From a candidate division WOR-1 bacterium RIFOXYB2_FULL_46_45 (GTDB lineage Bacteria > Margulisbacteria > WOR-1 > XYC2-FULL-46-14), in the NCBI GenBank assembly GCA_001771585.1, contig MEUE01000001.1, forward strand, positions 540,744 to 604,743: 64,000 nt of DNA, in the 5' to 3' direction. Positions 32,437 through 53,663 of this stretch are shown here, one piece after another. Made by a program: the position numbers and the translations under genes. Positions within the stretch are counted from its first letter, which is position 1; every line of letters begins with the position of its first letter. The notes beneath the pieces were generated by a model. The model did no database searches and was not told where the DNA came from. It saw only the letters and a list, made by a program, of their open reading frames with translations.

Positions 32437-32463
32437 ATATCGAAACGATGAGCATAAATCTTG
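32437..32463 (-). promoter_or_regulatory. Sigma-28-like promoter of the giant gene
   Basis: Minus strand: CAAGATTT, 11 nt, TTCGATAT. It starts a leader of about 106 nt with the hairpin at 32345-32372. Confidence 0.72.
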
Positions 32464-32498
32464 CATCAAAATAGGGGTTTTACAAACTTGTTAATAGG

Positions 32499-34559
32499 TT
32501 ATTTTTCTGATAATAACCTTATAAAATCGGCGGCAGATTTAAAGTCTTCGAATTTGCCTTTGGGGTCCACAGGGGTATTTCTGAGAGATTTCTTTAACTT
32601 TACGCTGACACTCGCTCCCCATTGTTGCATTGTTCTAAAAAAGTTTTTATTGTCTTTGTTTTTTTCTAAGGAGCAAAGAATTTGCATAGCCAAGTTTTGT
32701 TTTCGCTCGGAAGACATATATAACGGGTTTGTAACCTGTTTGTCGTCTTTTGTAATAGTAGCAGTTTGGCCTACCGCCACACCCAAAAATCCGATATTTG
32801 CTTGTATATCATCATAATCAGTAGAAACCTTCCCTTTTGTAGCTGCCACATCAGAATATTTTACGGTTATCTTATTATCGTTCTTATCCAGGTCAATTTC
32901 TATTTCTTCTTCGCTTTTTACCTGTCTATAAGCATCAAATATCGCTTTGGCGACAGTTAATCTTCGACTGTCTCTCTCTTGATTTCCTCGCGATTTAAAC
33001 TCATAAAGTTGGATAATAAGAAACTTTGCCTGTTTAAGCAACAAATCCTTAACTGCTTCGTCTTTTAAGCCTATTGCCAGTTCAAGGGCGGCAACCATAT
33101 TTTCTTGAGTAGCGTTAAAATCCATCTTTGCATAGCTTAATTCAGCCAATTTTGCACGCATCCTGGCTAATTTCAGGTTCTCTTCTTCATTTCGGTTTGG
33201 TTTGTCAGACAAAGTGCTAATCTCTTTTTTTAATACGACTACGTAATTATCGTAAGCTTGTTTTTTTTCAAGAAGGTCTTTCTCTTTGTCGGAAACAATT
33301 TTTTGGAAATCAATCTCTCCCGGCAAACCTTCCTGTTTCAAGCTGCCATACATGGCAGCCAATGCTACAATTTTGGATTTAAGTTCGTCGCTCTCACTTG
33401 CATTGTCCGCGATGGTTTTTAATAACCCCTGAACTTCAGCGGCCAGCTCCCTTTGTTCTTTTGTTAGATGTTTATTGACACTCTCGTTCGCCCATTGTCC
33501 TGCGGAGATAAAAATCGATCTTTTCCTGTCCTCTGTTGGATCTTTCCTGTAGGCAAAGATGACGTCTTTCAATGCCTCTTCATATCTCTTTTTATCGAGG
33601 TAACATTTCACCAGTAGATCCCTAACCCTTAAATTGTTCTGATCGCTTCTTTTGTAGCTTTCCAAAGCATCTATCGTTCCCTGAATATCCCCTCGATTAT
33701 ATTTTTCCTGAGCCTCTTGCAATTTTCCCTGTGAAACACTTCCCCCCGCCCCTTCGCCCGCCGCACTCGTTTCCCCCGCCTCCGCCGTTTTCTTCCCCTC
33801 CTTGCTCACCCAGGCCAACAAATTATCTTCCTCCGGCTTTCCCCCCTTCGCGGCATCGGGCAATCCGTACTTTGACGGATCGGCCGCATGGGCGGCAAAA
33901 GCCAGCGCGTATAAGAGAGAAGTAAATTGCTCAACCGTAAATCGGGTCTTTCCGTCTATCGTCCCGCCGTTTAGGCGCTCGGCAATAGTCCTTGCCGTCC
34001 CTCTTATACTCTCATTGCAATCGTTATTGAGCCATTGGTCTAGTTTAAGTTTTCCCCCCTCAAAATTGGAGCTGTACCGGTCGGCATATTCTTTTGCCGC
34101 CACTTCACAGGCAACCCATCTTATGCTCTTACAGGTCTTAAAATCCTTAACGATCTGAAGCGCAATCGCATGAGGAGTTTTGCTGTTACCGGTTAAGGCC
34201 TTTATTGTGTCTTGCTGTACCAAGACCGCCATAGCGGCCTTAAGTTCGGCCGGAGTGATTACATCATCGGCTCCCCCACCTTCTACCCCGCCGGAAGAGA
34301 AAAATAAAAATCCTTCTCTGGAAAAACCCATTTTTTTAGCTTGTTCCCAGGTTAAATTTTTATTTAAATCTTTTATCTTTAGCTCTTCACGGATTGCTTG
34401 TTCTCGTAATTGCTCAATTTTAGGATCCGGAGGATTTTGTGCCGGAGGAGTGGCCGCCTTCGGCGGTTGCGGAGAGGCATTCTCGGCCGGTCTCGTCTGT
34501 CCGCCCGGGACGATCGTTACTCTTGGGCCAATCGGCGCTATTGAACCACCGGGTGCCAT
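32499..34559 (-). CDS. Large TPR protein with Pro-rich N-terminus
   Basis: A 686-residue protein of no named family. Residues 1-45 are Gly/Pro-rich (APGGSIAPIGPRVTIVPGG, SPQPPKAATPPAQNPPDPK). Residues about 60-230 form a helical domain (SGGVEGGGADDVITPAELKAAM resembles an EF-hand-like loop; Cys pairs at CKSIRWVAC). From about 275 there are TPR-like helices (QEKYNRGDIQGTIDALESYKR, VKCYLDKKRYEEALKDVIFAYR), followed by long helices. The start at ATG 34559 is supported by GGGAGGAAAC. No signal peptide. Its own sigma-28-like promoter lies 24 nt upstream. Scaffold role is inference. Confidence 0.82.
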   Translation of the reverse strand: MAPGGSIAPIGPRVTIVPGGQTRPAENASPQPPKAATPPAQNPPDPKIEQLREQAIREELKIKDLNKNLTWEQAKKMGFSREGFLFFSSGGVEGGGADDVITPAELKAAMAVLVQQDTIKALTGNSKTPHAIALQIVKDFKTCKSIRWVACEVAAKEYADRYSSNFEGGKLKLDQWLNNDCNESIRGTARTIAERLNGGTIDGKTRFTVEQFTSLLYALAFAAHAADPSKYGLPDAAKGGKPEEDNLLAWVSKEGKKTAEAGETSAAGEGAGGSVSQGKLQEAQEKYNRGDIQGTIDALESYKRSDQNNLRVRDLLVKCYLDKKRYEEALKDVIFAYRKDPTEDRKRSIFISAGQWANESVNKHLTKEQRELAAEVQGLLKTIADNASESDELKSKIVALAAMYGSLKQEGLPGEIDFQKIVSDKEKDLLEKKQAYDNYVVVLKKEISTLSDKPNRNEEENLKLARMRAKLAELSYAKMDFNATQENMVAALELAIGLKDEAVKDLLLKQAKFLIIQLYEFKSRGNQERDSRRLTVAKAIFDAYRQVKSEEEIEIDLDKNDNKITVKYSDVAATKGKVSTDYDDIQANIGFLGVAVGQTATITKDDKQVTNPLYMSSERKQNLAMQILCSLEKNKDNKNFFRTMQQWGASVSVKLKKSLRNTPVDPKGKFEDFKSAADFIRLLSEK

Positions 34560-34582
34560 AATTAGTTTCCTCCCCTATCCAT

Positions 34583-34609
34583 ATATCGCAATATCACACT
34601 AAAAACTTG
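34583..34609 (-). promoter_or_regulatory. Sigma-28-like promoter of the 686-residue TPR protein
   Basis: Minus strand: CAAGTTTT, 11 nt, TGCGATAT. It starts 5 nt after the stop of the preceding gene. Confidence 0.75.
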
Positions 34610-34614: not shown

Positions 34615-35568
34615 TTATTTATTTTTTGATGTTTCTACTATTATCTGTCTTACTTTTTTCTGTCTTTCTTCTCCTTGAACCTCGGACATCCTCTTCTTAA
34701 TTTCTTCTTTTATTTTTTTAGCCTCTTTCCATTTTTTTTCTCTAATTTTTGTTTCCGCATCTCTGATTAAATCATCAATAGATCCCCCCGGTTTTTTTAC
34801 GGGTTTATCTTCTACTTTCGCCGCTGGTGCCGGAGTAGGAGAAGTAGGTGGATCTGCCGCTTTGGCTGGTGCAGTCGGTGCCGGTGTTGGAGGAGGCGCT
34901 GCCGGTTGCCCTTTCCTCACTTTACGGGCCTTTACGGGCCTTTCTGCCTTTACAGTTGGTTTTTCTACCGCCGGCGGAGCGGGAGGAGGAGCAGTCAGCG
35001 GTTCCAATTTAAAAAAGTTGGCTTGAACTGCCGGCTCATACTTTAATGCTTCCGTTACCCAAAGAACATATTTGGCGGCTTTTACAGGTTCTATGTTTTT
35101 ATGCGCTTCAACATAAGCTTTAACTTGTCCCCAAAGCGGACCGGCCTCTTCAGTGAGCTTCACTTTTCCATCGGGAGAAGTAATCGCAGCAGCCTGATCT
35201 CGAATCGCCGCATCGGCGTTGAGTTCTCTTGCTTCAAAATTGGTTCCGGAGGCATAAAGCTCCCGCGCTTGTAGCATGGCATCTTCATCGGTCAAAGATT
35301 CTGGGCTTATTTTTTGAAGATAATCGGCATAGGCCTTGATATCGGCTTCCCGTTTTTGCAGGGCATCGATGGTGATTGCCTGAGTTGAAGCTCCATCCAA
35401 CTGCCACCCTTTTCTCAAGAGATCGGCTTCGGATTTATTTTTATCGACGATGCCAAGCTTTTTTTCTTCGACTTCGTTAAGACCATCATTAAGATTAACT
35501 TGCGAAAGCTTCGATGAATCTGCTCCACGCTTCGTTAAATAAGCGGTCCAAAGCGGGCTTATTGTCAT
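34615..35568 (-). CDS. Pro/Ala-linker helical protein, function unknown
   Basis: A 317-residue protein. I chose ATG 35568 (MTISPLWTAYLTKRGAD) because AGGAGAAAGAT precedes it; 23 upstream codons of the longer frame run into leader repeats. Residues 1-190 are a helical domain (VNLNDGLNEVEEKKLGIVDKN, LADYLQKISPESL-like YADYLQKISPESLTDEDAML). Residues about 190-260 are a Pro/Ala/Lys linker (APPPAPPAVEKP, KGQPAAPPPTPAPTAPA). The C-terminus is a charged helix (AETKIREKKWKEAKKIKEEIKKRM). No signal peptide. Promoter at 35651-35677. No family recognised. Confidence 0.75.
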   Translation of the reverse strand: MTISPLWTAYLTKRGADSSKLSQVNLNDGLNEVEEKKLGIVDKNKSEADLLRKGWQLDGASTQAITIDALQKREADIKAYADYLQKISPESLTDEDAMLQARELYASGTNFEARELNADAAIRDQAAAITSPDGKVKLTEEAGPLWGQVKAYVEAHKNIEPVKAAKYVLWVTEALKYEPAVQANFFKLEPLTAPPPAPPAVEKPTVKAERPVKARKVRKGQPAAPPPTPAPTAPAKAADPPTSPTPAPAAKVEDKPVKKPGGSIDDLIRDAETKIREKKWKEAKKIKEEIKKRMSEVQGEERQKKVRQIIVETSKNK

Positions 35569-35650
35569 TATCTTTCTCCTTAAAATATAATACAGCCCAT
35601 TACAGGCACTGTCCCGAGCTCCGTCGAGGGAGCCCACCCATCCGTCTATT

Positions 35651-35677
35651 TTATCGTAACAACCCCCGCGGAACTTG
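35651..35677 (-). promoter_or_regulatory. Sigma-28-like promoter of the 317-residue protein
   Basis: Minus strand: CAAGTTCC, 11 nt, TACGATAA. It lies between the stop at 35688 and the gene. The leader of about 75 nt contains a GCTCC/GGAGC hairpin. Confidence 0.65.
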
Positions 35678-35687: not shown

Positions 35688-37982
35688 TTAAATTTTCACC
35701 GGCACGTCCGTTACTCTCATTTTTGCCCTTCCCTGCTCTTTTTGAAAGCCGTTTACCCTGACAGTTTTAGGCAAATTATTATTAACCATTGAGTACGGGT
35801 TACCTTGTGCACTTAAGTCCATCGTTCCAACATACGTAAACTCTACTACCCCTTCTTTAGGAATATAAACACCACGGTAAAGATGTTTCCCTCTCCAGTC
35901 CCCTTTCTCCACACTGCGTACACGATTAAACGCTCTTGCAACTTCCCGGTTTAAAAGATTTGCGGCCCTTTGGTCGACATCCGCCACAACGAGTTCAAGC
36001 CGCAGCTCTTCCTGTCTTCCCCTGAACTGCGGAGCAGCGGGATCCTCACCTTTTCTATCTGGAGTGCTAACCTCCTGCGGACCTGCAACACGACCGCCTA
36101 AATCTCCAATGGCGGCGGTTCTGCCAGGAGAAACTTCTCCTTTTCCCGTTAATCCGCCCCCTCTTGATCCAACCGTCAAACTGTCAGTCCCACTAAAATC
36201 AGCCTGGCGAGCCCCTGCTTTGAGCAACTCCGTCGCTCCTGCAGATCCCCTCCTTAATTGTCCAAGCGCTCCCATCCCGGTAACCATTCTAGCCAAAGCT
36301 GCTCTCCTTTTTTCATCAGCAGTTGTAACAGGAGCTGGCGCTATTGTTCCAGCCGGGACACTATCCGATTCATCGGCCTCATCAAAACGTACTACCCTTC
36401 CCCCGGTTGCTTTTTTTGCTGCTTCCAGTCCCCTGGTCTGTTCGGCCGCATCTTCATCCTGCGCTTTTTTAGCCGCTAAGGCTTCTTGCAGTTTTTCTCT
36501 AATCCCCGACAGCTCTGCTCTATCCTTATATTTCTCATAAAGCGCTATCGCCGAAGTATAATCTTTCCTCTCCATTGCCTCCCTTGCTTCTTTTAACTCC
36601 CTTTCCATTGTCCTCCTCGCCTCAGCTTGTGTTCTGGATTGCTCCGTCGGTTGCGCCGTAAAAAGCTCTTCCATTAGATCAGCAACTCCATCCGCTCTCT
36701 CCGGTTCCGCCCGGAGAGGGGGCTGGTCCTGCTCTGTTGTGGGATCTATGTCTCTAAGTGTTCCCGGCGATAACGGAGCGATCGGATCCGCTGGCGGCGG
36801 TGCGGCAGGATGTGGCGCCACAGAAGGAACCGGCGGCGGGACAGAAACTGCAGGGATAGAAACAGCCTTCGGTTTTGGATTATCATATTGCCAAGGTTTT
36901 TCCCCATATTCTCTTTGAGAATAATACCTTGAAGAAATTCTTACTTGCTGATGTTGCTCAGGTCCTTCTAGGCTGGTAAATCTTCTGTCGTCAGCCTTCT
37001 GTGATACTGTCGCTGGAACGGCCGGGGCTGGCCGAGGAGCCGGTTCAGTCGCCCCATTTTTACTCACTCCTAATTCGTTAAGAAATCTAGTCGTAGCAGT
37101 ATATCCTCTTGTTGCATATCCTCCAACAGCCTCCCCAATAGATCTCATCCTTTGCGTCGCCGCTCTAATTTGCTCTGCAGGATTTGCTTCCGGCACAGTC
37201 GGCGGCGGCACTGGCTTAGGATTCGGTACAGTCCTAGGCGGAGCAGAAGGTCTGGCTGTTGCCGCAGGAGGAGGGGGTGCTGTAGGAGCCGGTGCAGGTG
37301 GCGGCGAAGGCGCTGGTTTAGAAGCCGGCTGTTCCGCTGTTCCTGGATTATACTCTGTTAATTTGCTGTCAATCGATCCTTTCGAAAAATCGGTTATCCC
37401 TTTTTCATAGGCAAAACGCAATACGTGCCGAGTCCCGATTATTCCATCAGCATTGGCAGGCAGATATTCAAGCATAACGCTTGTTTCTGCAACTTTTTTA
37501 TTTTGAACCAAAAATGAACGGTAGCTTTTTTCTCCTCTTGCGGGGGGAGTATAAGCATTATATTCGCTCTTATATTCTTCCGAGGTCTTCTCCGCTTCTT
37601 TGAGGTCAATCCTACCAAGGTTTCCTGTAAAATAAAGCTCCCATGCCTTCTGTTTTGAATAGCCGAAGACGGAGGCAAAGCTCTCCACATCCTTCTCCAT
37701 CTTCTCCATCTCTTCAGGAGAAAGATCGTCAGCGCCTGCGATTGCCTCTCCCGTTTCCATTTCCGAAGCCAGTTTCCCTCCGCGGGCGTAGGCCTCAAAC
37801 AGGCCATTGCCGGAAGTTAGGCCAAGTTCATTTCTCTCCTGCGAGGTTAATTTATCGTCTTTTGCCGCTTCTTCTATTTTTTTATTCTTCGCCTCGTCAA
37901 CCTTCACGCCGCGGGCGGTTAAATGCCTGAGGATAGCATTAGAATAATTATTGCCGGAACCGGCTCCGGAAACTGCAGACAT
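35688..37982 (-). CDS. Large Pro-rich multidomain protein, function unknown
   Basis: A 764-residue protein. The N-terminus is MSAVSGAGSGNNYSNAIL, then an acidic helical domain (DEAKNKKIEEAAKDDKLTSQERNELG, residues 30-180). A long Pro/Ala linker (PAPSPPPAPAPTAPPPPAA, about 215-280), a TPR-like stretch (EAREAMERKDYTSAIALYEKYK, about 465) and low-complexity regions follow. The C-terminal domain (about 660-764: ELVVADVDQRAANLLNREV, VYIPKEGVVEFTYVGTMDLSA) is compact and strand-rich. ATG 37982 has an AGAGGTG Shine-Dalgarno. No signal peptide. It is driven by the promoter at 38039-38065. No family recognised. Confidence 0.78.
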   Translation of the reverse strand: MSAVSGAGSGNNYSNAILRHLTARGVKVDEAKNKKIEEAAKDDKLTSQERNELGLTSGNGLFEAYARGGKLASEMETGEAIAGADDLSPEEMEKMEKDVESFASVFGYSKQKAWELYFTGNLGRIDLKEAEKTSEEYKSEYNAYTPPARGEKSYRSFLVQNKKVAETSVMLEYLPANADGIIGTRHVLRFAYEKGITDFSKGSIDSKLTEYNPGTAEQPASKPAPSPPPAPAPTAPPPPAATARPSAPPRTVPNPKPVPPPTVPEANPAEQIRAATQRMRSIGEAVGGYATRGYTATTRFLNELGVSKNGATEPAPRPAPAVPATVSQKADDRRFTSLEGPEQHQQVRISSRYYSQREYGEKPWQYDNPKPKAVSIPAVSVPPPVPSVAPHPAAPPPADPIAPLSPGTLRDIDPTTEQDQPPLRAEPERADGVADLMEELFTAQPTEQSRTQAEARRTMERELKEAREAMERKDYTSAIALYEKYKDRAELSGIREKLQEALAAKKAQDEDAAEQTRGLEAAKKATGGRVVRFDEADESDSVPAGTIAPAPVTTADEKRRAALARMVTGMGALGQLRRGSAGATELLKAGARQADFSGTDSLTVGSRGGGLTGKGEVSPGRTAAIGDLGGRVAGPQEVSTPDRKGEDPAAPQFRGRQEELRLELVVADVDQRAANLLNREVARAFNRVRSVEKGDWRGKHLYRGVYIPKEGVVEFTYVGTMDLSAQGNPYSMVNNNLPKTVRVNGFQKEQGRAKMRVTDVPVKI

Positions 37983-38038: not shown

Positions 38039-38065
38039 TTATCGTAATTTGCGGTAAAAAACTTG
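38039..38065 (-). promoter_or_regulatory. Sigma-28-like promoter of the 764-residue protein
   Basis: Minus strand: CAAGTTTT, 11 nt, TACGATAA, one of the best matches to the family consensus. The leader is about 50 nt. Confidence 0.78.
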
Positions 38066-38200: not shown

Positions 38201-39571
38201 TTAAGGCAGGGCAACTACAGTCGGCGCATCAGAGTCATTCTCACCAATCCCGGCCAAAAAGAAAATTTTGGCAATCCTGCTTTGAACTTCTTCCGCCGTA
38301 ATCCTTGCTTCAGGATTAATCCTGGTCATATCAAAAAGAAGTTCTTTTAATGCGTTTCTCGCATTTTCGGAAACAGCCCCTAATGCTTTATTCAGTTTTT
38401 CCTTTGTCTCCTCTTCTAAAACGATATCTATAAGACTATCTGTAAGATTATAAGTCCTTGATGGGTTGGTTTCCGATAAAATTATCCCGTTGACAAGCTT
38501 CCTTTCGGTCTCCGACAACGGGGATGCGCGATCCAAAAACAAAAACAAAAACAAAAGTGCCAATTGGAAAACATCTCCCGGCGCACCGTAATCTTCCGTT
38601 TTATCCGGCGGAAAATACGCCTCTGTCCCCAGCGTCATACCAATCATGGTCGGGGCTGCCTGCATAACAACCGTATCAGCATCCGAAGAAATTTCCGGCG
38701 GTTGTATCTTTGCAATCCCAAAATCCAAAAGTTTAACTTCCCCCGAATCGTCAACCATCACATTCTGCGGCTTAAGATCCCTATGGAAAATATCCTGCTT
38801 ATGCAGTTCAACAAGCCCCCGGGAAATCCTCTGCAGAATAAATAGTTTTTCCTGCCAATTTATTCTGTTTTTTAGTGCGACAAGGTCTCTCCCTCTTATA
38901 TACTCTAAAACCTGAAAACTCCCATCCCCGTTTTCATGAAACGAGTACGTCCGTGCCAAATTGGGATGGCAAAATCTCATCCCTATCTCCGCTTCTTGCC
39001 TGAAGCGCGTTACTATGATATCCCTCCCCGCATCGTCTAATTTATCAAGTTCTTTTCTCAAAAGCTTCTTCAAAACCACCTGCCCCCTCCCTTCATCCAC
39101 CGGACCAACCCCAAGGACTATCATCCCCATCCCCCCCCGTCCGATCTGGCTTACCAGCTCATAGTCCCCCCATTTTTTAGTGGTACCATCGGGTTCTTTA
39201 ATCCTGCCATCAAGATCAACCTTCGCCGGATCAATCTTATCCGCCAGTTCCGCACGGATTTTACCAACCGTCGGCCAATCCACATCTGTCGCTACTTCCC
39301 TTCTTGCCGGCAGTCCAAATTTAATTTGTCTGCCAAGTAAAACTTTGACGGCAGTTTTTACTCCCGTCCATAAAACATAAGCGGCCAGCCCAAAACAGAA
39401 ACCGGCTTCGGTTGGAGCGGCAATATCACTTTTAAAATAAGATTGGTGAACTTGAATTTGTTGAAGGGATCTCGAACGTATGCCGGAACCGCGATAAACC
39501 ACATGGCCAACCGGCGCTCCCGCCAGGCCAAAAGCTCCCGCCCTTACAAGCTCTCTATATATTGGTTTCAT
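38201..39571 (-). CDS. Serine/threonine protein kinase (Hanks type)
   Basis: A 456-residue kinase. The N-terminal 90 residues contain two hydrophobic segments (about 12-27 and FCFGLAAYVLWTGVKTAVKVLL, about 56-78), so it is probably membrane-anchored. The kinase domain starts at about 130: GRGGMGMIVLG (P-loop), VVLKKLL (ATP Lys), HRDLKPQNVMVDDSGEVKLLDFGIAKI (catalytic loop and DFG), then TEAYFPPDK in place of the usual GTxxYMAPE. All catalytic residues are present. ATG 39571 lies 9 nt from a sigma-28-like -10 box and has no Shine-Dalgarno, so it is nearly leaderless like the PP2C gene at 194-1054, its probable antagonist (inference). Confidence 0.93.
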   Translation of the reverse strand: MKPIYRELVRAGAFGLAGAPVGHVVYRGSGIRSRSLQQIQVHQSYFKSDIAAPTEAGFCFGLAAYVLWTGVKTAVKVLLGRQIKFGLPARREVATDVDWPTVGKIRAELADKIDPAKVDLDGRIKEPDGTTKKWGDYELVSQIGRGGMGMIVLGVGPVDEGRGQVVLKKLLRKELDKLDDAGRDIIVTRFRQEAEIGMRFCHPNLARTYSFHENGDGSFQVLEYIRGRDLVALKNRINWQEKLFILQRISRGLVELHKQDIFHRDLKPQNVMVDDSGEVKLLDFGIAKIQPPEISSDADTVVMQAAPTMIGMTLGTEAYFPPDKTEDYGAPGDVFQLALLFLFLFLDRASPLSETERKLVNGIILSETNPSRTYNLTDSLIDIVLEEETKEKLNKALGAVSENARNALKELLFDMTRINPEARITAEEVQSRIAKIFFLAGIGENDSDAPTVVALP

Positions 39572-39580: not shown

Positions 39581-39607
39581 GTATCGTCAGATAAAACAAA
39601 AAATTTC
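39581..39607 (-). promoter_or_regulatory. Sigma-28-like promoter of the kinase
   Basis: Minus strand: GAAATTTT, 11 nt, GACGATAC. The -35 part overlaps the stop codon and terminator-like palindrome of the preceding gene. Confidence 0.72.
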
Positions 39608-43955: not shown

Positions 43956-45845
43956 TTATAACCCCGCCCTGATCGTCGGCCTCGTGATCTCAAACTGGAA
44001 CCCTTTGTCCCAGGAGAGGAGGTCGTCGACCATCTTGACTGCCAGCGATGTTTTGGAGAGCATCTGCACCGATTCGGCGCGGGAAATGCTCTTCTCCGGC
44101 TTCAGCTCGGTATCGTTGATGTATGAGAGCATCCCGGCCTCGGAGGCGGCATTGACATAGCCGGCCGCCCAGTGCTTTTTGCTGACATCGGAGTATGCGG
44201 TTTTGGCGTCATATTTCTTCTGCAGTCCGTCGAAACGGGCCACTACCGTGATCGCTTCGGCGTTGCTGATCCGATTGTTCGGGCGGAACTTCCCGTCCGG
44301 ATAACCTTTGATCAGACCAGTCCGCTTCGCGATCTCAACATATCCCGCCGCCCAGTGGGAAGAGGCAACATCTTTAAACACTTTGACTGGCCGTCCGGGG
44401 ACTTTGTACTCTTTCGCGCGGACCAAAAGAGCGGCCAGTTCGGCGCGGGTCAAGCTCCGGTCCGGTTTGAAGGTCCCGTCCGGGTACCCCTGGACCAGTC
44501 CGACCGTTCCGGTGTTCTCAATCGGCGCTTTCGCCCAGTAGCCGGAATTGACGTCAGTAAAGCTGACCAATCTTAAGACCCGGCGGTCTTCGGTAAGCTT
44601 TCTTCCTTTGCTGTCGCTCGCTTCAACATGGACCAATTTTTTTCCGACTTTTTCGATCGGAACCGAAGCGGTGAAGGTCCCGTCGGCTGAAAGCGGAGCG
44701 CTAACTCCGTTGGCCAAAACGGTTATCCCGCTGATATTTCCCGATAATTTTCCGGCAACTTTGACGTTGTCGGTGTAAACCGTCGCTTTATCCGATGGCG
44801 AAGTAAGGGACATTTCAAGATCGAGCTTCTTGGGCTCATCCGCGCCGACATAGCCGATCGAGAAATAGTAGGTCGCGTTCTCGGCGACCTCCCCGTAGGG
44901 GTGATAGGCAAAATCAAAAGCGATCCCCTGCATCCTCAAACCGAGTCCGGCAGAGAGATTGGTAACTGTTCCGCCCGGGGCCGGATCCTGATCAAGCCCT
45001 GCTCTCAAGGCGAATGACGGAGTGACAAAAAATTCCGCGCCGGCATGGAGCGTGTTCGCGCGCTTGCTCATTAAATCATAATCGGCCGCTAAAGTAAGTT
45101 TGCGGTTCCCTTCCATCGGAACACAGTAAGAAACACCGGTCTTTATCGTTGGGACCATCGCGTTTCCAACTCCGTTGCCGGATTGTAATTTGGTGCCGAG
45201 CGGGTTTTGAGCCACTACACCGACGGTCAATTGGTCGTTAACCGAATATAAGGCGCCGGCATCAAGTCCGAGAGCTGAACCGTTGGTCCCTTCAGCCGTT
45301 GTAGCACCGGAAGCCCCCTGGCTGTAATATTTCGCCGAGGCGCCCAGCTTGGTCTTCCCGTCTGGAAGAGCGATTCCATATGAAGCAAAGATCGCGTTGT
45401 TGCTCCAGTTGGCCGATCCGATTGAAGCTTGAGAACTGTCGTAAAGAGGAATTGCTCCGACATTGGAGGTTACAATCCCCGCTCCGATCGCACTGTTAGC
45501 GTTCAAAGGATAAGCGCCGCCGAAGACGACATAATTTACATCGCCAAGAAGTGAAGTGTACATGCTGGTCAGTTTAAGAGATTTGATCCCGCCCAAGCCG
45601 GCCGGGTTGGTGAAGACCGTTTCGGCATCTTCGGCCACCGCCGTGTAGGCACGGCCCATACCGAGCGTCCTTGCTCCAACGCCGATCCTAAGCGGATCGG
45701 TTGCAGTTGTATCGGCAGCCAGCGCCGAAGTAGCTACAAGAATAAATCCCAAAACCAAAATCCCAATGAATCTTTTAATCTTTAAATCTTTAAATGATTT
45801 AATTTTTTTTGATTCATTTGTCATTTGAAATTTGTCATTTGTCAT
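43956..45845 (-). CDS. PorV-like barrel with three C-terminal SLH domains
   Basis: A 629-residue secreted outer-membrane protein. A hydrophobic signal (KRFIGILVLGFILVATSALAAD, ending near 45) is preceded by a polar extension derived from CAAATGACAAATG-type repeats (MTNDKFQMTNES). GGAGGGG supports ATG 45845. The barrel follows: GARTLGMGRAYTAVAEDAETVFTNPAGLGG and strands to about 330. An Ig-like segment (LTSPSDKATVYTDNVKVAGKL) follows, then three SLH domains (FTDVNSGYWAKAPIE, FKDVASSHWAAGYVE, YSDVSKKHWAAGYVN). SLH domains should tether it to the cell wall. It is co-transcribed with the two upstream secreted proteins. Confidence 0.87.
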   Translation of the reverse strand: MTNDKFQMTNESKKIKSFKDLKIKRFIGILVLGFILVATSALAADTTATDPLRIGVGARTLGMGRAYTAVAEDAETVFTNPAGLGGIKSLKLTSMYTSLLGDVNYVVFGGAYPLNANSAIGAGIVTSNVGAIPLYDSSQASIGSANWSNNAIFASYGIALPDGKTKLGASAKYYSQGASGATTAEGTNGSALGLDAGALYSVNDQLTVGVVAQNPLGTKLQSGNGVGNAMVPTIKTGVSYCVPMEGNRKLTLAADYDLMSKRANTLHAGAEFFVTPSFALRAGLDQDPAPGGTVTNLSAGLGLRMQGIAFDFAYHPYGEVAENATYYFSIGYVGADEPKKLDLEMSLTSPSDKATVYTDNVKVAGKLSGNISGITVLANGVSAPLSADGTFTASVPIEKVGKKLVHVEASDSKGRKLTEDRRVLRLVSFTDVNSGYWAKAPIENTGTVGLVQGYPDGTFKPDRSLTRAELAALLVRAKEYKVPGRPVKVFKDVASSHWAAGYVEIAKRTGLIKGYPDGKFRPNNRISNAEAITVVARFDGLQKKYDAKTAYSDVSKKHWAAGYVNAASEAGMLSYINDTELKPEKSISRAESVQMLSKTSLAVKMVDDLLSWDKGFQFEITRPTIRAGL

Positions 45846-45859
45846 TTTTCCATCCCCTC

Positions 45860-47743
45860 CTATTTATTCACCACAAGTATTTTGCCTTTGGCAATTAATT
45901 TCGATCCCGCGGCAACACGGTAGAGATAGGCGCCGTCGCCCAGTGTCTCTCCGTAAGCGTTTTTACCGTTCCAGGTGACCGTCGCGGATTGATTCGGTAT
46001 TGCTGGTGTTGCTGAAGTCCAGCTTAATTTTTCAACCATCTCCGCCGCGGTGTTGAAGATATAGATTGTGGCGGTGGTATCGGTTCCGGAATCAAATACG
46101 ATTGTGGTGCTCTCCCCGCCGTTCGGGTTGAACGGGTTCGGATAGTTGTAGGAGCCGGTTCCGGTTGCCTGGCTAGTAACCTCGAAGGTTACAGCGTTTG
46201 ACTGTTTAAGGTCCGATGTACGGATTGCCGAAAGCTGCATTGTTCCGCTTAGTCCGGCCGGGACTTTGAAAACGATCTGGCTTACCGCCCATGAAGTGAT
46301 GGCGGAATTGGCCGCGGCGCTTTCGATATAGGTCTTGGATTGGGCTCCGGAGAATTCCACCTTTCCGGCGGTTCCCAAATTGGTTCCGGTAATGGTCACA
46401 GTATCCCCCGTTTTCGCCTTGGCCGGGCTGATGCTTATGATGCTGGGAGCATCGGAGGTTGGAGTTGGGGTTGTTCCTTTCGTCGCGACAACATAGTCAA
46501 GCAAGACTCCTGACGATGCCGCTTTACCGGTGAAGACCATCTGGTATTCGATAACTTTTGACCAATCCATGTTGGCGTCGCCGGCAGTTGAACCGGTGAC
46601 TCTGGCCATTTTGGTCTTGAAGGAAGCAAGTTCATATTTGGTCCAGGAACCGGACGATTGCGCCGCCGCGTCGGCGTCGGCAACCGCGAAGTTGGTCCCG
46701 TCGGCATCCTTGAACTGGATTTTTACTTTGTTGGTGGTTGAACCGTCCCCTTTCACATAGAAAGAGAGGGTGTCAACGTTGGATAAGTCCTGGGTCGCGG
46801 CCAAAATACCGCCCCAGCCTCTCCACGAATCGGTATCGGTTGAAGCCAAGGCATAAGAGGTTTGCATTGAATAACTTTTTTCGTATTTGTCGGAGGTTAT
46901 TCTGGTATAAGTCGGGTTCGAATACCCCGTCGGCGCGAAGCCGTAGTAACCGGTAGTCGGATTGACCGCGGTCCCTTCGAAGTCGTCGATGACAACCGTG
47001 GTGGCGCCGCCGCCGGAAGTGTTGACGGTGAAAGCCGCGGTTCCGGAAGCCCCGGTAATCGAAACCGTTCCCGCTCCTGTTACAGCGGTACTTGCGATCG
47101 TAATATTAGCCGCGATGGTGGTTGCAGTAGAAGCGCTCGCACTGTTTACGGTAATTCCCGCGTTAGAAAATTTAACCGATGATTTCATGTCGCCGGTCCA
47201 GCTGGTGCCGGAACCGGAAATAGTGACACTTAAAGTTTCTCCCTGCTTCCCGCTGGTTGGGGAGATGGAGGAGATGGAAGGACCAGCGATTATATTGGTG
47301 CCCGTTGAAAAAGAGACCGGACGATAAATATAGGAAACTGCCGTCATGGCGGAAGAAATCGCCGATATCCCGTATTTACCGGTCGGAGTTCCGGTTCCAT
47401 TCCAGGTTTCCCACGCGACAATGTAAACATAATTTCCGGTCGGAATACTGGCACCGGATTTGGTAAACGTCCCGGCGGCGCTTAGCGTCCCGCTTAAAAT
47501 AACTGTGTCCGTAGAGCTTGAAGGAAGACCGTCGGTAGTTTTGGGAGCGCTGGTTGAAGAATCGGTTGATTTCACAACCTGCACATACGCCCCGCTGGCC
47601 AAATTGGCATTTGAACTGTTCAAGATCGGATTGGGCGTAGTATTGCTCGGACTGCAGGAAACAGAAACCACCGCCGCCTGCGCCATGCCGGCCAATAAAA
47701 ACAGAATAACCGCCAAGCCGCCGATTTTAAAAATACTTTTCAT
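45860..47743 (-). CDS. Secreted IPT/TIG protein with PNPFNP-type C-terminal domain
   Basis: A 627-residue secreted protein. Signal peptide (KSIFKIGGLAVILFLLAGMAQA). IPT/TIG Ig-like domain (SISSISPTSGKQGETLSVTISG, about 155-245), a carbohydrate-binding-like jelly roll (VIDDFEGTAVNPTTGYYGF, about 250-430), a second IPT/TIG (APSIISISPAKAKTGDTVTITG), and a C-terminal FlgD/T9SS-type domain (YNYPNPFNPNGGESTTI to GDGAYLYRVAAGSKLIAKGKILVV). PNPFNP...YLYRV domains serve as secretion or surface-anchoring tails in several phyla; no type IX component is seen here. The ATG has a GGAGG Shine-Dalgarno, 15 nt after the preceding gene. Confidence 0.87.
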   Translation of the reverse strand: MKSIFKIGGLAVILFLLAGMAQAAVVSVSCSPSNTTPNPILNSSNANLASGAYVQVVKSTDSSTSAPKTTDGLPSSSTDTVILSGTLSAAGTFTKSGASIPTGNYVYIVAWETWNGTGTPTGKYGISAISSAMTAVSYIYRPVSFSTGTNIIAGPSISSISPTSGKQGETLSVTISGSGTSWTGDMKSSVKFSNAGITVNSASASTATTIAANITIASTAVTGAGTVSITGASGTAAFTVNTSGGGATTVVIDDFEGTAVNPTTGYYGFAPTGYSNPTYTRITSDKYEKSYSMQTSYALASTDTDSWRGWGGILAATQDLSNVDTLSFYVKGDGSTTNKVKIQFKDADGTNFAVADADAAAQSSGSWTKYELASFKTKMARVTGSTAGDANMDWSKVIEYQMVFTGKAASSGVLLDYVVATKGTTPTPTSDAPSIISISPAKAKTGDTVTITGTNLGTAGKVEFSGAQSKTYIESAAANSAITSWAVSQIVFKVPAGLSGTMQLSAIRTSDLKQSNAVTFEVTSQATGTGSYNYPNPFNPNGGESTTIVFDSGTDTTATIYIFNTAAEMVEKLSWTSATPAIPNQSATVTWNGKNAYGETLGDGAYLYRVAAGSKLIAKGKILVVNK

Positions 47744-47758
47744 CTTTTCCTCCTCCTT

Positions 47759-50700
47759 TTACTTGGACTGTGTCCAGCTGAATGAAGTTATCGTCGGATC
47801 GTTCACTATATACCCTCGACCGGGCAATAGCATCAAAGTTGAGGTCTTTGTGTTAGAATCAACCCAGCTTGCGGACCCGTTGTGCCAGGCGTAACCGTCG
47901 CCGATTATCGAAGCATTGGCGTCAATTATCGAAACCTGCGCCGCGTCAAGACCGCCGCCTTGAGTACCGAAAGTTAACCCATTCAAACCCGTCTTAGAAT
48001 CGGATATTAATACCGGTGTCGGAAAGGCGTTGGCAATTAACTCAAGATTTAAGCCGGTCTTTGTCGAATCCAATCCTAAAGCCAATGTTAAATTGTTTGA
48101 TTTTTCCATTAATTTTCCGACTACCGTAAGGTGCTTGGCGGTAAAAGTGGTATAGACATAACTGCGGCCTGCCTGTAAGCTGTCCAAGGCGGTTATTCCG
48201 GATATGTCCGCCCAAGCGCTTTTTGAATAGGTCTTCCCTTTGGTAATTGAGAAATTATTATCGATCACCGCAATTGCGTCGTCATCACTCGGCTGGGCGC
48301 CAAAAACGGTTGAGAGCGTATAGCCAGTCGGTTCCAACGGAAGCGAAATGAATGCCCTTTCCGGATTAGTATCCGACGGGCCGACTCCCAGATCAAACTT
48401 CCCTACCACATCCAAACTTAATGCTGTCGCGGTCAAAGTTGTTCCGGTCGGAACGACTTTGTAATATTTCTGGTATCCGGCACCAACCAATCCCTCTTTT
48501 GCTTTATCGGTATAAGTGGTAGCCGAAACATTGGTGCTTTCCGCTTTCCACTTGGTGGTATCGGTTGTATAAACCGCGGTGGTTGATTCCGAAGTTCCGG
48601 AGACGGAATAGATGTCAACCGCGGTAACTCCCGCTTTATTGATCATCCAACTTAAAGTTACGGAAGACCCAACAGTATCCGCGTCGCGCTTGATGGAGGT
48701 AACAATATCGCCGATAACCGGCGCGGTATATCCTTCCGCCGCGACAAAGTCGGCTCTGATTGGTCCGGCCGAAGCGTCATTGCCGGTAAAGACCAGCTGA
48801 TAATCGGTGATGCGGGCCTGGAAACTCTTAAAATCAACTCCGGCAACTTTTTCCACCCCTTTGTCGTCAACCTCTTTCAAGGCCGACATCGGAATAGTAT
48901 GTTTGGTGAAGGTTGTATCGCTTAACTTAATATTATAGGTTGTGGTCGGCATACCGCCAAAATTGGCAGTGGTCTTCCCGTCGGTGCTTTTTCCGGTTAC
49001 CTGCAGTTTTAATTCCCCCGTGCTGGTTGTGTCAACCATGGTATAAATAACCAGGGTGTCGAAAGCCGAAAGGTCCTGCTCGGTTTTTAGCGTGGCATTA
49101 TACCCCCTGAATCCCTGCAGGGTCTTCAGATAGGTTATCTCCGCCGCCTGATCCCCTTCGTATTTTTTGGTTGTGGACATGGCAACCGTGATATCTCCGC
49201 CGGTCGCGAACTTATTGTAGCCGACAACCGAGATTGGCTTTCCTTTGCTGTCATACTCAAAATCATCGATTATCTGCGATATTTTTGTCGCGCTGTCCGC
49301 GATGGTAAACCCTTTTTCAAGTGTCCCTTTCTTTGCTTCCGCCTTATTTTCCACCACCAGATCCCATTTGCCGATTTGCGCGGTGGTCGCGGAAGTCAGG
49401 TCAAAGGTGCAATTAATCTTGCTTGAACTTGTCGAATTTACAACAGCCGAAAGATTGGTCTGTCCGGTTTTTGAAAGAGAAACCGTCGCGTCGGAAGCAA
49501 AATTACTCCCTTCTATATTTACGGTGATCTTCCCGCCGATCGGAGCAACGTTTGGAACTACCCGCTTAATATCGGGAGTCCCCGCCGTTTTAACTTCAAA
49601 CTCAACATCGCTGTTGCTCTTTTGACTGTCGATTGTAACCTCTATCGCGTATTTACCAACCGCCAGAGCCGCGGGCGATAAGACGGCCAACTGGTCGTTT
49701 GCTCCCGTCCCATCCGGTGAGTTTCCACTCTTTCTTGGAGTGGTTAAAGTTCCCGCTCCGGCAGAAGTAGAACCGAAAGCAACGGTATTGGTCCCGCTTA
49801 ACGCCGTCCCCTCTATGGTAACCAGAACGGATGTTCCCTGGGCGGTTGAAGTCGGGTTTATTGAGTAAATCTTCGGCTTTACGTTCAAAGCCATTTTATT
49901 GCTGGCTCCCAAGACATTGGTAACCACCAATTCATTCTTGCCGGAATCAATAAAAGTGGTCCCGATGCTCCTTGGTATGCCGATCTTAATCTTTTTATCG
50001 CTCCATTCCCAAACCTGCAATCCATCATAACTCACGTCGGTATCATCTCTTATTGTAAGTCCGCCGGAATAATTGGTGTGATAGATTTTGACGTTGTTGG
50101 TTGCGGTATCCTTCTTTCCTTTTCCGGGATCGGATCCAAACCCTTCTCCCGTAATAACTATTGTGTCATAAACATAGGCATCGGTAGTTGCAGTACCGGA
50201 AGCATTTTCGAGCCCGATTATTTTTGCAATGCCGGGAGCAGTCCCCCCCCCCATCGTAAACGGTCCGACCGAATCGGGCAAGCTCTGTAATCCCTCGCTG
50301 TCTTTCGCAATAACTTTTAAATAATAACTTGTTCCGGCCAGCAGTTTGGTTGAATCCATCGCGATTGAAGTGGTCGAAACGTTTGATCCCAAAACTTTCC
50401 ACATCCCGGATCCCACTTCGCTCGTTCCTATATAATAAACATCGTAAACAGGGGTGCCGTTGTCGTCGATTGCCGCTTCCCAGGTTGCATTACCCGAAAC
50501 ATCTTTTTGTCCGGTTACCGGGGTAATAATGCGCGGCTTGCCGGGAGGAGTATTCAACTCTCCCGTGTCCTTGTCATAAAAACCGGTCGCGTAGCTAAAA
50601 TCATAAAAACCACCGTCGCTGTAAGCATACCAGAGAATTGAACCGTCGGGAGAAAGGACGGCACTGTCCGATTCGGACAAATACTTAAACGGGCCGTAAG

Positions 50701-51778
50701 CCAGCCAACCGTTGCCGGTTTTTTGATTTGTATCCAAATCGGTTACCGAAGGCATATCCCATCCCGACCATTTTATGCTTTCCGTCTTAAAAACATAGCT
50801 GTAAACTCCCGTGCCGTCTTTCGCGCTGGTGCGGTAATGGTTGACATAAAGATATTTGCCGTTGGGAGAAACATCCATCCCTTCCCAAATATTGTTTGCC
50901 GTATCCTGCTCGTTGGCATTTACAACTCTGGCTACGCCAAGCAATTCATAGGGAACCAGCGCCGTACTGGAATAAATCCTAACGTCGGCATTGTCACCGC
51001 TAACCTCATGCACCCTGACATACAACAATTCAACCGGAACAGTAGAATAAGAATCGGTATAACCGGAATATTTCAAATAAGTCGGATTATATAAATTAGA
51101 GATAGTTTCAACTTTGGTAAAGGTACCGCCAACCGCCTGGCTGATGTCATAAATCAAGACCGATCCGTCGGTCCTGGCAACCGAAACCGCCAGGCGCGAT
51201 CCGTCTTCTTTTATCGCCAATCCGTAAATACCAAATTCGCCGGTATTGATTGAAGAGGCCAGATATTGATTTTTAACTATGTCGATAACATAAACCTGTT
51301 TGCTTCCGCCGTCCGCTATATAAAGGAACCTGCCATCCGGAGTAAGCGCGATCTGCCGGGGCGACTGCATTGAAGAAGGCTTGTTGGACGCGAAAGCGGT
51401 ATCTTCTTTAATGCTTGAGATATTTGAAATGTCGTACGCCCTTACCGTTGAAAAAGACATTCCGGCGGCCAATGAAACATACAGTTTTTTTCCGTCCGGT
51501 GAAACTACCATCCCGTACGGCTTCCCGGAAAGCGGCCCGATTGAAGCGACATTGGCAGTCAAAGTAAGCTTCCCACCTACAAGGACCCCTCTATGCACAA
51601 AAATCTTGGAAGAATTGGTGTCGGGAACAAACACATAATGATATGTCCCCCCGCCCGGGTTTGCCTTGACCGGCGAACAAACCGGCTGAGACGGTACCGC
51701 CACCGCAAAGGCCTGGACCGAGGTTAAAGCCAAAATCACCGCCGACAATAAAATTAAACCGAATTTACCCAATTTCAT
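47759..51778 (-). CDS. Large secreted beta-propeller / FN3 / IPT surface protein
   Basis: A 1,339-residue secreted protein. Signal peptide (KLGKFGLILLSAVILALTSVQAFA). YVTN-type beta-propeller repeats (KPYGMVVSPDGKKLYVSLA, SPRQIALTPDGRFLYIADGG, YGLAIKEDGSRLAVSV, about residues 30-390), an FN3-like domain (RIITPVTGQKDVSGNATWEA), three IPT/TIG domains (about 520-840), a jelly-roll domain shared with the next protein (IIDDFEYDSKGKPISVVGYN, about 840-1050), an FN3-like segment and a C-terminal strand-rich region. It probably forms an adhesin-like surface structure. It is co-transcribed with its neighbours. Confidence 0.86.
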   Translation of the reverse strand: MKLGKFGLILLSAVILALTSVQAFAVAVPSQPVCSPVKANPGGGTYHYVFVPDTNSSKIFVHRGVLVGGKLTLTANVASIGPLSGKPYGMVVSPDGKKLYVSLAAGMSFSTVRAYDISNISSIKEDTAFASNKPSSMQSPRQIALTPDGRFLYIADGGSKQVYVIDIVKNQYLASSINTGEFGIYGLAIKEDGSRLAVSVARTDGSVLIYDISQAVGGTFTKVETISNLYNPTYLKYSGYTDSYSTVPVELLYVRVHEVSGDNADVRIYSSTALVPYELLGVARVVNANEQDTANNIWEGMDVSPNGKYLYVNHYRTSAKDGTGVYSYVFKTESIKWSGWDMPSVTDLDTNQKTGNGWLAYGPFKYLSESDSAVLSPDGSILWYAYSDGGFYDFSYATGFYDKDTGELNTPPGKPRIITPVTGQKDVSGNATWEAAIDDNGTPVYDVYYIGTSEVGSGMWKVLGSNVSTTSIAMDSTKLLAGTSYYLKVIAKDSEGLQSLPDSVGPFTMGGGTAPGIAKIIGLENASGTATTDAYVYDTIVITGEGFGSDPGKGKKDTATNNVKIYHTNYSGGLTIRDDTDVSYDGLQVWEWSDKKIKIGIPRSIGTTFIDSGKNELVVTNVLGASNKMALNVKPKIYSINPTSTAQGTSVLVTIEGTALSGTNTVAFGSTSAGAGTLTTPRKSGNSPDGTGANDQLAVLSPAALAVGKYAIEVTIDSQKSNSDVEFEVKTAGTPDIKRVVPNVAPIGGKITVNIEGSNFASDATVSLSKTGQTNLSAVVNSTSSSKINCTFDLTSATTAQIGKWDLVVENKAEAKKGTLEKGFTIADSATKISQIIDDFEYDSKGKPISVVGYNKFATGGDITVAMSTTKKYEGDQAAEITYLKTLQGFRGYNATLKTEQDLSAFDTLVIYTMVDTTSTGELKLQVTGKSTDGKTTANFGGMPTTTYNIKLSDTTFTKHTIPMSALKEVDDKGVEKVAGVDFKSFQARITDYQLVFTGNDASAGPIRADFVAAEGYTAPVIGDIVTSIKRDADTVGSSVTLSWMINKAGVTAVDIYSVSGTSESTTAVYTTDTTKWKAESTNVSATTYTDKAKEGLVGAGYQKYYKVVPTGTTLTATALSLDVVGKFDLGVGPSDTNPERAFISLPLEPTGYTLSTVFGAQPSDDDAIAVIDNNFSITKGKTYSKSAWADISGITALDSLQAGRSYVYTTFTAKHLTVVGKLMEKSNNLTLALGLDSTKTGLNLELIANAFPTPVLISDSKTGLNGLTFGTQGGGLDAAQVSIIDANASIIGDGYAWHNGSASWVDSNTKTSTLMLLPGRGYIVNDPTITSFSWTQSK

Positions 51779-51790
51779 CTTTTCTCCTCC

Positions 51791-53485
51791 TTAATCCGAA
51801 CCTTTATCCGCCTCCGCCTTCCCGGCATCCGCTCTTCCCGCTTCCAATGATTTTCCCGCTTCACTTATCCCAAGATCAAAACGATTCCCTTCCTTTGAAA
51901 TTCCCGAATCACCGACTTTGGGTGGAACAACTTTTACCCTGGTTCTCAATTGCAGCAAATGTCCAAGATCGGTAATTTGGGTCAAAGCGGCTCCCGAACG
52001 GTCAATGTCTCCTTCAACTACCACCCTAACCGTAACCGTTTCCTCCACGGGGGTTCCTGTCCCGCGAAAAACAAATGCCGGGGACAAGATCCAGGGCAAA
52101 GCAGAGTTATTAATATCAAGCAGAGAAGAGGTAACTGGAATCTGTATCGGTTCTATTTTCTGGTTGACAGTTTTATTCGGCCCGAGGGCTACCAGCGTTA
52201 CTTTTGTAATCTTAAACGGAACCGCCTGGGCCAGCAAAGCGTCTTTTGCCGTTTTGGAAGAAGACAAAGCTGAAGTTACGGTATCGACAACAATCTCGGC
52301 CGTGGCGTTCTTGTCAAAAACCGCCTGCTTGGAACGATCTTCCTCTTCTGTCAGCGAAACAGCAACACTCTTCCCTTCCGTATTTTTTAACACCTTATAA
52401 GGAGGTTTTCCCGACAAATTCTTTTCTACTTTAACATATTGATTTTCGGCAGCCAAAGAAACTTCTTTGCTTTTGTCAAGAGCGATAAGTTTTGACGACT
52501 TGTCGATCGCGGCGCATTCTTCGGTTCCGCCCCCGTCTTTCCTGCAAAGCAGTTTGCCATTGGAGTCCACTCTATAATAAGCCATTACGATCTCTTGCAT
52601 CGGATCGCCGTACTTGACATAATATTCCTTATTAAAATTAGAATCATACAAATAAAACAGCGGATAGTCCCTTGAGCCGATCTTTACTTTCTTTTGTTCG
52701 GGCGAAACATAGATTGTTTCGCCGTTCCGTGCGAATTCATAAACCGCGTTGCCGCCTTCTACCTTAGCCAAAATCCCTCCCGGGACCGCCTTGCCTTCCA
52801 CTCCCTTATAAAAAGTGCAATCGGTGCTTGCTTTGTCTTTACATTCGGCGGTTTTGCCGGGATCCTGCAGGCGGGGATCGCTATTGTCTTCCAAAGAAAC
52901 AAATTGGCCGTTTTTATCTACTATAATAGAAGAGAGCTGTGTCCCTATTTTTAATCCCAAAGAATATCCCGCCTTCAAACCAATTCCCTCATTGACGTCA
53001 ACAATGGCGGAAAAAGGGATCTTTGCTCCACCCTGATTGGAGTTAACTCGCTGGGTAACCGCCCCTTCCACTACTTTTTCTTTGTCTCTCCCCACTCCCT
53101 GATCATTGTAAATTTCCTCCACTCCATCCGGAGTGCAATTTGCCAATGCAAGAGCCATTCCTAATCCAGTCGATTTAGTAGCTCCTCCAGCAATTAGCAC
53201 TTTAGCCGCTATCCCTGCCGTTGCAACCGTTAATGCCACTGCTGCAGTCCCATACCCACCATAGTAAGCAACTTTCGAAACCGTTTCTTGTGTTCTTGTG
53301 GTCATAATACTGTCAACTGCTCTGGCAAATCTATATGCAGTGCTTTTTACTCGAAATGGTTCTTGTGGATTTTTTGCTTCTTTTTTACCTGCCGTGTTTT
53401 TTTGATGTCCCGGCTTGTCCAAACCAAAATAAGCATCAAATTTTTTAGGATCATTTAAACTATAACTAGAATTTACTCCACCCAT
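51791..53485 (-). CDS. Hypothetical protein with hydrophobic hairpin and repetitive tail
   Basis: A 564-residue protein of unknown family, first gene of the secreted-protein operon. N-terminus MGGVNSSYSLNDPKKFDAYFG, no signal peptide. A Gly/Ala-rich hydrophobic stretch lies at about 75-125 (YYGGYGTAAVALTVATAGIAAKVLIAGG). The central region is strand-rich (GGILAKVEGGNAVYEFARNGETIYV) and looks extracytoplasmic. Cys residues occur in pairs (AECKDKASTDC). The tail repeats EAGK/EAGRADAGK units. ATG 53485 is supported by AGGAGGG. Two tandem sigma-28-like promoters lie upstream. Confidence 0.75.
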   Translation of the reverse strand: MGGVNSSYSLNDPKKFDAYFGLDKPGHQKNTAGKKEAKNPQEPFRVKSTAYRFARAVDSIMTTRTQETVSKVAYYGGYGTAAVALTVATAGIAAKVLIAGGATKSTGLGMALALANCTPDGVEEIYNDQGVGRDKEKVVEGAVTQRVNSNQGGAKIPFSAIVDVNEGIGLKAGYSLGLKIGTQLSSIIVDKNGQFVSLEDNSDPRLQDPGKTAECKDKASTDCTFYKGVEGKAVPGGILAKVEGGNAVYEFARNGETIYVSPEQKKVKIGSRDYPLFYLYDSNFNKEYYVKYGDPMQEIVMAYYRVDSNGKLLCRKDGGGTEECAAIDKSSKLIALDKSKEVSLAAENQYVKVEKNLSGKPPYKVLKNTEGKSVAVSLTEEEDRSKQAVFDKNATAEIVVDTVTSALSSSKTAKDALLAQAVPFKITKVTLVALGPNKTVNQKIEPIQIPVTSSLLDINNSALPWILSPAFVFRGTGTPVEETVTVRVVVEGDIDRSGAALTQITDLGHLLQLRTRVKVVPPKVGDSGISKEGNRFDLGISEAGKSLEAGRADAGKAEADKGSD

Positions 53486-53541
53486 TTTATTTCCCTCCTG
53501 TTTTTCTGGTATCCCGATATCCTGTTATCCTATCTATATAT

Positions 53542-53568
53542 TTATCGTGAGCATTTCCGGAAAATTTC
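53542..53568 (-). promoter_or_regulatory. Sigma-28-like promoter (proximal) of the five-gene operon
   Basis: Minus strand: GAAATTTT, 11 nt, CACGATAA. The leader is about 50 nt. It drives 53485 down to 43389, whose genes are separated by only 3-15 nt. Confidence 0.77.
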
Positions 53569-53636
53569 ACACTATTTTGCATTTCTAAAAAAATACCCAA
53601 AACAGCACAAAACAGACCTGGTCCCGCCTAACGGCC

Positions 53637-53663
53637 TAATCGTAATAACAGAGGTAAAACTTG
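53637..53663 (-). promoter_or_regulatory. Sigma-28-like promoter (distal) of the five-gene operon
   Basis: Minus strand: CAAGTTTT, 11 nt, TACGATTA. It starts 12 nt after the Omp85 gene stop and 95 bp upstream of the proximal promoter. Its transcript would carry a 31-codon frame (53582-53487) ending 1 nt before the operon's first ATG. Confidence 0.65.

Follow-up and report, generated by a model that had tools for sequence, protein, structure and literature searches.

Background

FliA (sigma-28) of Escherichia coli recognises promoters of the consensus TAAAGTTT-n11-GCCGATAA (PMC2859248), and FliA of Bdellovibrio bacteriovorus, with the consensus TTAAG-N16-CCGATA, controls the attack phase together with surface and uncharacterised genes (PMC3627812). 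Here we describe ten sites of this general form in a stretch of 64,000 nucleotides (the window; contig MEUE01000001.1, positions 540,744 to 604,743) from an uncultured Saganbacteria species whose genome of 1.70 Mb is 99.5% complete. A protein search identified the relatives as Candidatus Saganbacteria (WOR-1), a class within the Margulisiibacteriota, of which 31 genomes were compared. An earlier note on the window had read the ten sites as one sigma-28-like promoter family dedicated to a cluster of giant proteins. Our analysis shows two families that occur throughout the genome and the class, and suggests that they are read by two FliA-like sigma factors encoded with flagellar-type export genes.

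The sites resemble E. coli FliA promoters in the AAGTTT core of one class (CAAG), in the -10 box CGATAA, and in that FliA-type sigma factors are encoded with flagellar genes. The distance from AAGTTT to CGATAW is 14 nucleotides (nt) here and 13 nt in E. coli. This shift in register by one nt is not unusual, because the spacing AAG-N17-CGATA of Bdellovibrio FliA is identical to that of the Saganbacteria sites. Unlike the E. coli system, the present one has two linked -35 types, no detected flagellin or motor-coupling domain, and many predicted leaderless starts. Bdellovibrio is flagellated and has one FliA motif, whereas two sigma factors and two motifs are present here, and no flagellin was detected.

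Flagellar export without motility has also been described. A flagellar export apparatus lacking flagellin secretes proteins in Lysobacter enzymogenes (PMC9927559), protein export has been proposed for the basal bodies of Buchnera and other flagella-like loci (PMC3459982), and the non-flagellar type III secretion system, or injectisome, is a case of type III export put to a use other than motility (Abby and Rocha 2012, PMC3459982). The Saganbacteria system is like those of Lysobacter and Buchnera in retaining flagellar export genes without filament and motility. It differs from them in being class-wide, in its FliE/FlgB/C/F/G rod, L/P-ring and FliK-like genes and truncated FliG, and in what appears to be its own two-sigma regulon. 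With the injectisome it would share the turning of type III export from motility to another use, but it has flagellar-type rod and L/P-ring genes (FlgG/H/I) in its operon, and no secretin was seen there. The literature that we found on flagella or type III secretion in Saganbacteria or Margulisbacteria consists of passing mentions, with no description of such a system. As far as our searches reach, the parts are of known kinds, but their combination, class-wide conservation and double -35 code are undescribed.

Two linked promoter families

All ten sites are present in the window, nine on the minus strand and one (9092-9118) on the plus strand. They fall into two families, GCAAGTTT-N14-CGATAW with six sites (the CAAG class) and TGAAATTT-N14-CGATAW with four (the GAAA class), which have the -10 box, the spacing and the orientation in common and differ in the -35 element. 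When the window was searched with these class-specific cores, allowing one mismatch and taking 100 shuffles as control, exactly these ten sites were returned and nothing else: six for GCAAGTTT-N14-CGATA (shuffle mean 0.09, maximum 1; 0 of 100 shuffles reach six) and four for TGAAATTT-N14-CGATA (shuffle mean 0.40; no shuffle reaches four). The single consensus [CG]AA[GA]TTTT proposed before merges two linked families, in which C pairs with G (GCAAG) and G with A (TGAAA), and was dropped once the two -35 classes emerged. In the stretches fetched from the own genome (G000), the mixed -35 forms (TAAA, TAAG, CAAA, AAAA and GCAG) are all intragenic and the pure CAAG and GAAA forms lie outside called genes at 68 of 82 sites; the sole other form outside genes is one CAAT. 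Weight matrices of the two classes likewise differ at the linked -35 positions and in the initial region, with CGATAW common to both.

Checked one by one, all sites are followed by a correctly oriented gene. For the plus-strand site this gene is a 72-amino-acid (aa) open reading frame (ORF) at 9126-9344 and not the epimerase at 9366. The earlier statement that most sites occupy gaps of less than 60 bp holds for only five of nine intergenic regions by the ORF table. The likeness to FliA/sigma-28 promoters is borne out by the AAGTTT-like -35 core, the CGATAA -10 box and the rigid spacing of about 13-14 nt, which exceeds that of the E. coli consensus by one nt. The ten sites are probably real promoters of the flagellar (sigma-28) type, and their activity is predicted from these features.

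In 15 promoters of the GAAA class (TGAAATTT), an ATG stands exactly 6 nt past the -10 hexamer, and the position of its A is conserved as A to 87% in the weight matrix of the class. The usual distance between -10 and +1 would place this ATG at +1, that is, on a leaderless transcript. These 15 promoters are predicted to give leaderless mRNAs that start 7 nt after the hexamer.

Distribution in the genome and the class

The own genome holds 22 exact copies of GCAAGTTT-N14-CGATAW and 56 of TGAAATTT-N14-CGATAW, and none of the reversed patterns that served as genome-wide control. The loose pattern AARTTTT-N{10-14}-CGATA gave 63 matches against 5 reversed, with 55 of the 63 at exactly N13, and the N13 form with one mismatch gave 159 against 19. 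Among the exact motifs whose gene position was examined (a sample of 67, drawn around sites, a choice of which the comparison inside and outside genes is independent), 57 lie outside called genes, an excess rather than the equal density inside genes that the earlier note had named as speaking against its proposal. One further tandem CAAG/GAAA pair before a single gene was observed at C1:507604/507707 (positions in the own genome are given as contig:coordinate, C1 and C3).

Both motifs are found in all 31 genomes of the class, with 3-22 GCAAG and 5-166 TGAAA sites per genome, and the reversed controls match 1 and 2 times (three altogether) across all of them. Far from being a local family, the promoter set extends over the genome and reaches the level of the phylum. 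In most genomes outside the class, counts of the combined motif stay close to background, and one family stands clearly above it; in one outside genome (G043), TGAAATTT-N14-CGATAA is present, and TG precedes AAATTTT in 19 of 22 inspected sites. With ten sites in the window against 78 exact copies in the genome, the idea of an alternative-sigma regulon stands and that of its dedication to the giant-protein cluster falls. The earlier note is thus partly supported: it named the correct kind of promoter (sigma-28-like) but misjudged its scope. For this unstudied phylum, a neighbour of Cyanobacteria with uncultured members, the motif also serves as a sequence-based entry point, since it alone predicts which hypothetical proteins group together.

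Two FliA-like sigma factors

A region-4 search of the own genome returned RpoD, one ECF factor and two FliA-like factors, of 222 aa at C3:15.6 kb and 202 aa at C3:139.9 kb. The earlier note had suggested looking for fliA/whiG-type genes, and two such genes are present, each inside a flagellar-type export operon in the phylum. FliA_WhiG (TIGR02479) is the best NCBIfam model for both (137.2 and 73.7 bits, below the cut-off of 189.6), sigma-70 regions 2 and 4 are above the Pfam cut-off in both, and both genes are located with flagellar genes. The two factors are conserved in the class at 59-79% identity, with relatives at the same gene positions in the phylum. The region 4.2 recognition helices of the two factors are distinct and individually conserved (SESQVSRI and S[RK]PKVCRLL); in alignment, SESQVSRI resembles the helix of typical FliA (SESRVSQL). 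The absence of a sigma gene was considered as a natural knock-out and rejected: both genes are class-wide, and the few absences fall in incomplete genomes that keep both motifs.

No match to FlgM (PF04316) was found in the own genome, with control genomes positive. Two small conserved genes without Pfam hits, F4 (about 88 aa) and F1 (about 70 aa), lie between flhA and the 202-aa sigma gene in relatives, and it is possible from this position that one of them encodes an anti-sigma factor. Two other loci were rejected as sigma factors on reading, L006 being an Xre-type regulator preceded by a site and L007 a small DNA-binding protein. A CAAG site at C3:311096 (L071) precedes the gene of an Xre-family regulator that has a second domain. 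Next comes a small RelE-like gene; by inspection only, this pair is toxin-antitoxin-like.

A flagellar-type export apparatus without detected flagellin

The first operon of the phylum reads flgF-G-A-H-I-J-sigma-flgBC-fliEFGHIJ. In the own genome it runs from flgG to fliJ, with the 222-aa sigma gene between flgJ and flgB; most relatives read share this arrangement, with a FliK-like gene, an FlhB-C-like gene and flgF in front of it, and a few genes there are masked by longer ORF calls on the opposite strand. In many relatives a second operon reads fliP-fliQ-fliR-flhB-flhA-F4-F1-202-aa sigma, and FliO-, FliN-, FliM-, FliK- and FlgE/F/G-like genes lie upstream of fliP. The gene set of flagellar-type type III export (FliPQR, FlhAB, FliF, FliHIJ, rod, L/P rings) is therefore represented, with FliPQR-FlhAB from relatives only. 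No secretin was seen in the operons read, and no genome-wide secretin search was made.

Flagellin (PF00669) and the C-terminal torque domain of FliG (FliG_C, PF01706) were each matched in 0 of 31 class genomes, with control genomes positive. FliG in the operons read has about 155-186 aa, and the 172-aa FliG of the own genome consists of N and M domains only. Eight other genomes of the phylum, outside the class, do possess flagellin. Some of these flagellin-bearing relatives, for instance G034 (L148), also have the operon type with two sigma factors and short FliG, plus extra FliA-like genes, and a non-motile system may coexist there with a true flagellum. Near the basal-body operon of the own genome, C3:19.5-34.5 kb (L122:10529-14770) encodes a 1413-aa protein with a Clp/AAA-type ATPase-like part and long unknown regions.

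The two promoter classes are found before these operons. CAAG sites precede the operon from the FliK-like gene to the 222-aa sigma gene and flgBC in 6 of 8 genomes (p=3e-9; the own-genome copy is weak), and GAAA sites precede F4-F1-202-aa sigma in 4 of 10 (p=3e-5), compared with a site rate of about 2% in background upstream windows.

Products of the regulon

The products of GAAA genes include Ser/Thr kinases, a PEP-utiliser domain protein, GH8, GH77, HD/RelA-SpoT, AAA, and acyl- and acetyltransferase domains, as well as an adenylosuccinate synthetase with an N-terminal extension of 45 residues. Those of CAAG genes are mostly without Pfam families. For instance, the cluster at C1:163.5-177 kb (L123) has at least four CAAG promoters and encodes proteins of 1526, 592 and 525 aa with several small ones, and a Pfam scan of C1:163-177 kb gave no families among the proteins scanned; its products are candidate external or structural substrates of a secretion system.

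In both sets the N-termini are enriched in S/T/N/P/G/Q (p=2.5e-6 and 2.6e-4) and poor in hydrophobic residues relative to background, an enrichment that the protein cores do not share. A strongly hydrophobic N-terminal stretch occurs in 8% of GAAA and 19% of CAAG products against 28% of background. The majority of site-proximal products carry no signal peptide, so that the earlier description of them as surface proteins does not apply in its usual sense. Signal-peptide-free N-termini rich in S/T/N/P/G/Q have the composition expected of type III signals, which is no proof of export.

A probable staged regulon and its alternatives

It appears fairly probable that two sigma-28-type factors run a staged regulon which feeds a flagellum-derived, non-motile type III secretion system. 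This reading is based on the two promoter families with their positions and orientation, their class-wide conservation, the two sigma genes in export operons, and the lack of flagellin and FliG_C matches. Two FliA-like (group 3) sigma factors would differ in -35 specificity (GCAAGTTT or TGAAATTT) and share the -10 box CGATAW, and their genes lie within the operons of a flagellum-derived type III apparatus retained class-wide without detectable flagellin or FliG motor C-domain. The CAAG sigma would direct the apparatus operon (FliK-like protein, rod, rings, MS-ring, ATPase) and surface, structural and giant proteins. The GAAA sigma would direct a larger set of proteins, mostly of cytosolic appearance, which probably are exported as substrates or effectors, many of them made from leaderless mRNAs; candidate effectors are the Ser/Thr kinases, RelA/SpoT-HD and AAA proteins, glucanotransferase, adenylosuccinate synthetase and the acyl- and acetyltransferases. 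As a putative checkpoint analogous to FliA-FlgM, the finished apparatus may export a small anti-sigma factor (F4 or F1) and thereby free the late sigma. If FliA-type autoregulation holds, a pairing of GAAA with the 202-aa sigma (after flhA) and of CAAG with the 222-aa sigma (between flgJ and flgB) is slightly favoured.

Several points weigh against this reading. The hints on which sigma reads which box conflict, autoregulation and conservation in the phylum pointing one way and the FliA-like helix SESQVSRI the other. In the own genome the 202-aa sigma gene is separated from flhA, and FliPQR, FlhAB and FliMN are known from relatives only. The flagellin and FliG_C negatives mean no profile match, and the FlgB-FliE-FliF-FliI backbone might yield an unusual appendage should there be a filament protein that escaped recognition. 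Moreover, many regulon products match no Pfam family. Several CAAG products, with their signal peptides or SLH domains, would be exported by Sec, several GAAA products, among them two NtrC-like regulators and enzymes, may simply be cytosolic, and the background ORFs for the product comparison include some spurious calls.

The strongest alternative is that a broad regulon for lifestyle or the cell surface, with no functional tie to secretion, is controlled by one or two sigma-28-type factors, the flagellar operons merely keeping ancestral sigma genes. The attack-phase global regulon of Bdellovibrio FliA, with the same AAG-N17-CGATA spacing (PMC3627812), is consistent with this, as are targets such as Sec-type lipoproteins, an SLH protein, an L,D-transpeptidase-like protein and the two NtrC-like regulators. 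However, in several genomes sites of both classes are also found before operons for the export apparatus or a sigma factor, the majority of products have biased N-termini without signal peptides, and the apparatus is retained across the class despite the lack of flagellin, and so we regard such a regulon as rather unlikely.

It also seems improbable that a single sigma factor reads both -35 versions, with the CAAG/GAAA split arising from a second regulator that overlaps the -35 element. The identical -10 element and spacing of the two classes, and the tandem pairs before one gene (53542/53637 in the window; C1:507604/507707), would fit this explanation, but the linked -35 positions change jointly with essentially no intermediates, the +1 regions differ, and two sigma factors exist with different, internally conserved region 4.2 helices. 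Promoter activity is predicted from sequence, and the sites could instead be operators of a transcription factor or some other DNA signal, yet two asymmetric boxes with fixed spacing, gene orientation and leaderless-ATG distance and a FliA-like -10 make this very improbable. Chance matches in AT-rich spacers, which do account for some intragenic hits among the one-mismatch forms, are already refuted as a general explanation by shuffle and reversed controls near zero in the window, the genome and the 31 genomes.

Beyond the staged regulon itself, we tentatively propose, with somewhat less confidence than doubt, a class-wide conversion of the flagellum into a non-motile secretion machine under a two-step sigma-28 cascade with two -35 codes, which would cover about 75-150 genes in this genome, with many new secreted effectors or giant proteins, some of them translated from leaderless mRNAs. 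If the products are exported, the flagellum would have been exapted for secretion across a whole class, apparently apart from the injectisome and under dedicated regulation of its own, and possible targets would be other microbes, a matrix or a host. If true, it makes testable how a motility machine turns into a secretion machine and how two FliA paralogues divide promoter recognition.

Sites and genes of the window

The individual sites were assigned to their classes by sequence and core search, and all features given here are on the minus strand unless noted. The GAAA-class promoter at 1061-1087 (TGAAATTT-N14-CGATAA) has an ATG 6 nt downstream and is predicted to be leaderless; the first gene after it (194-1054) encodes a 286-aa protein that is PP2C-type phosphatase-like by inspection only. 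On the plus strand, the CAAG-class promoter at 9092-9118 (GCAAGTTT-N14-CGATAG) is followed after 7 nt by the start of the 72-aa ORF and then by an NAD-dependent epimerase (9366-10286).

The CAAG-class promoter at 32437-32463, a CAAGATTT variant, precedes the giant protein at 19185-32351, of 4388 aa from a GTG or 4379 aa from an ATG, which has no obvious N-terminal signal peptide. Three more promoters of this class follow: that at 34583-34609 lies before a 686-aa protein (32499-34559; N-terminus rich in G/S/P, no Pfam hit), that at 35651-35677, a CAAGTTCC variant, before a protein of 340 aa (GTG) or 317 aa (ATG) (34615-35637; no Pfam hit), and that at 38039-38065 before a 764-aa protein (35688-37982; N-terminus rich in S/G/N, no Pfam hit above the curated cut-off). 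GAAA-class promoters at 39581-39607 and 43364-43390 precede, respectively, a 456-aa protein with a Ser/Thr protein kinase domain (38201-39571; PF00069, E=8e-32) and an 896-aa protein (40652-43342; N-terminus rich in G/S, no Pfam hit). The tandem pair consists of a CAAG-class promoter with the CGATTA variant (53637-53663) as its first member and a GAAA-class promoter (53542-53568) as its second, both upstream of a 564-aa protein (51791-53485; N-terminus rich in S/N/G, no Pfam hit).

From 19185 to 64000 the window forms a long run of very large genes in one direction (4388, 1867, 1339 and 1086 aa), and some of their products have Sec-type signal sequences and SLH/TIG domains (43956-51778), beside others without signals.
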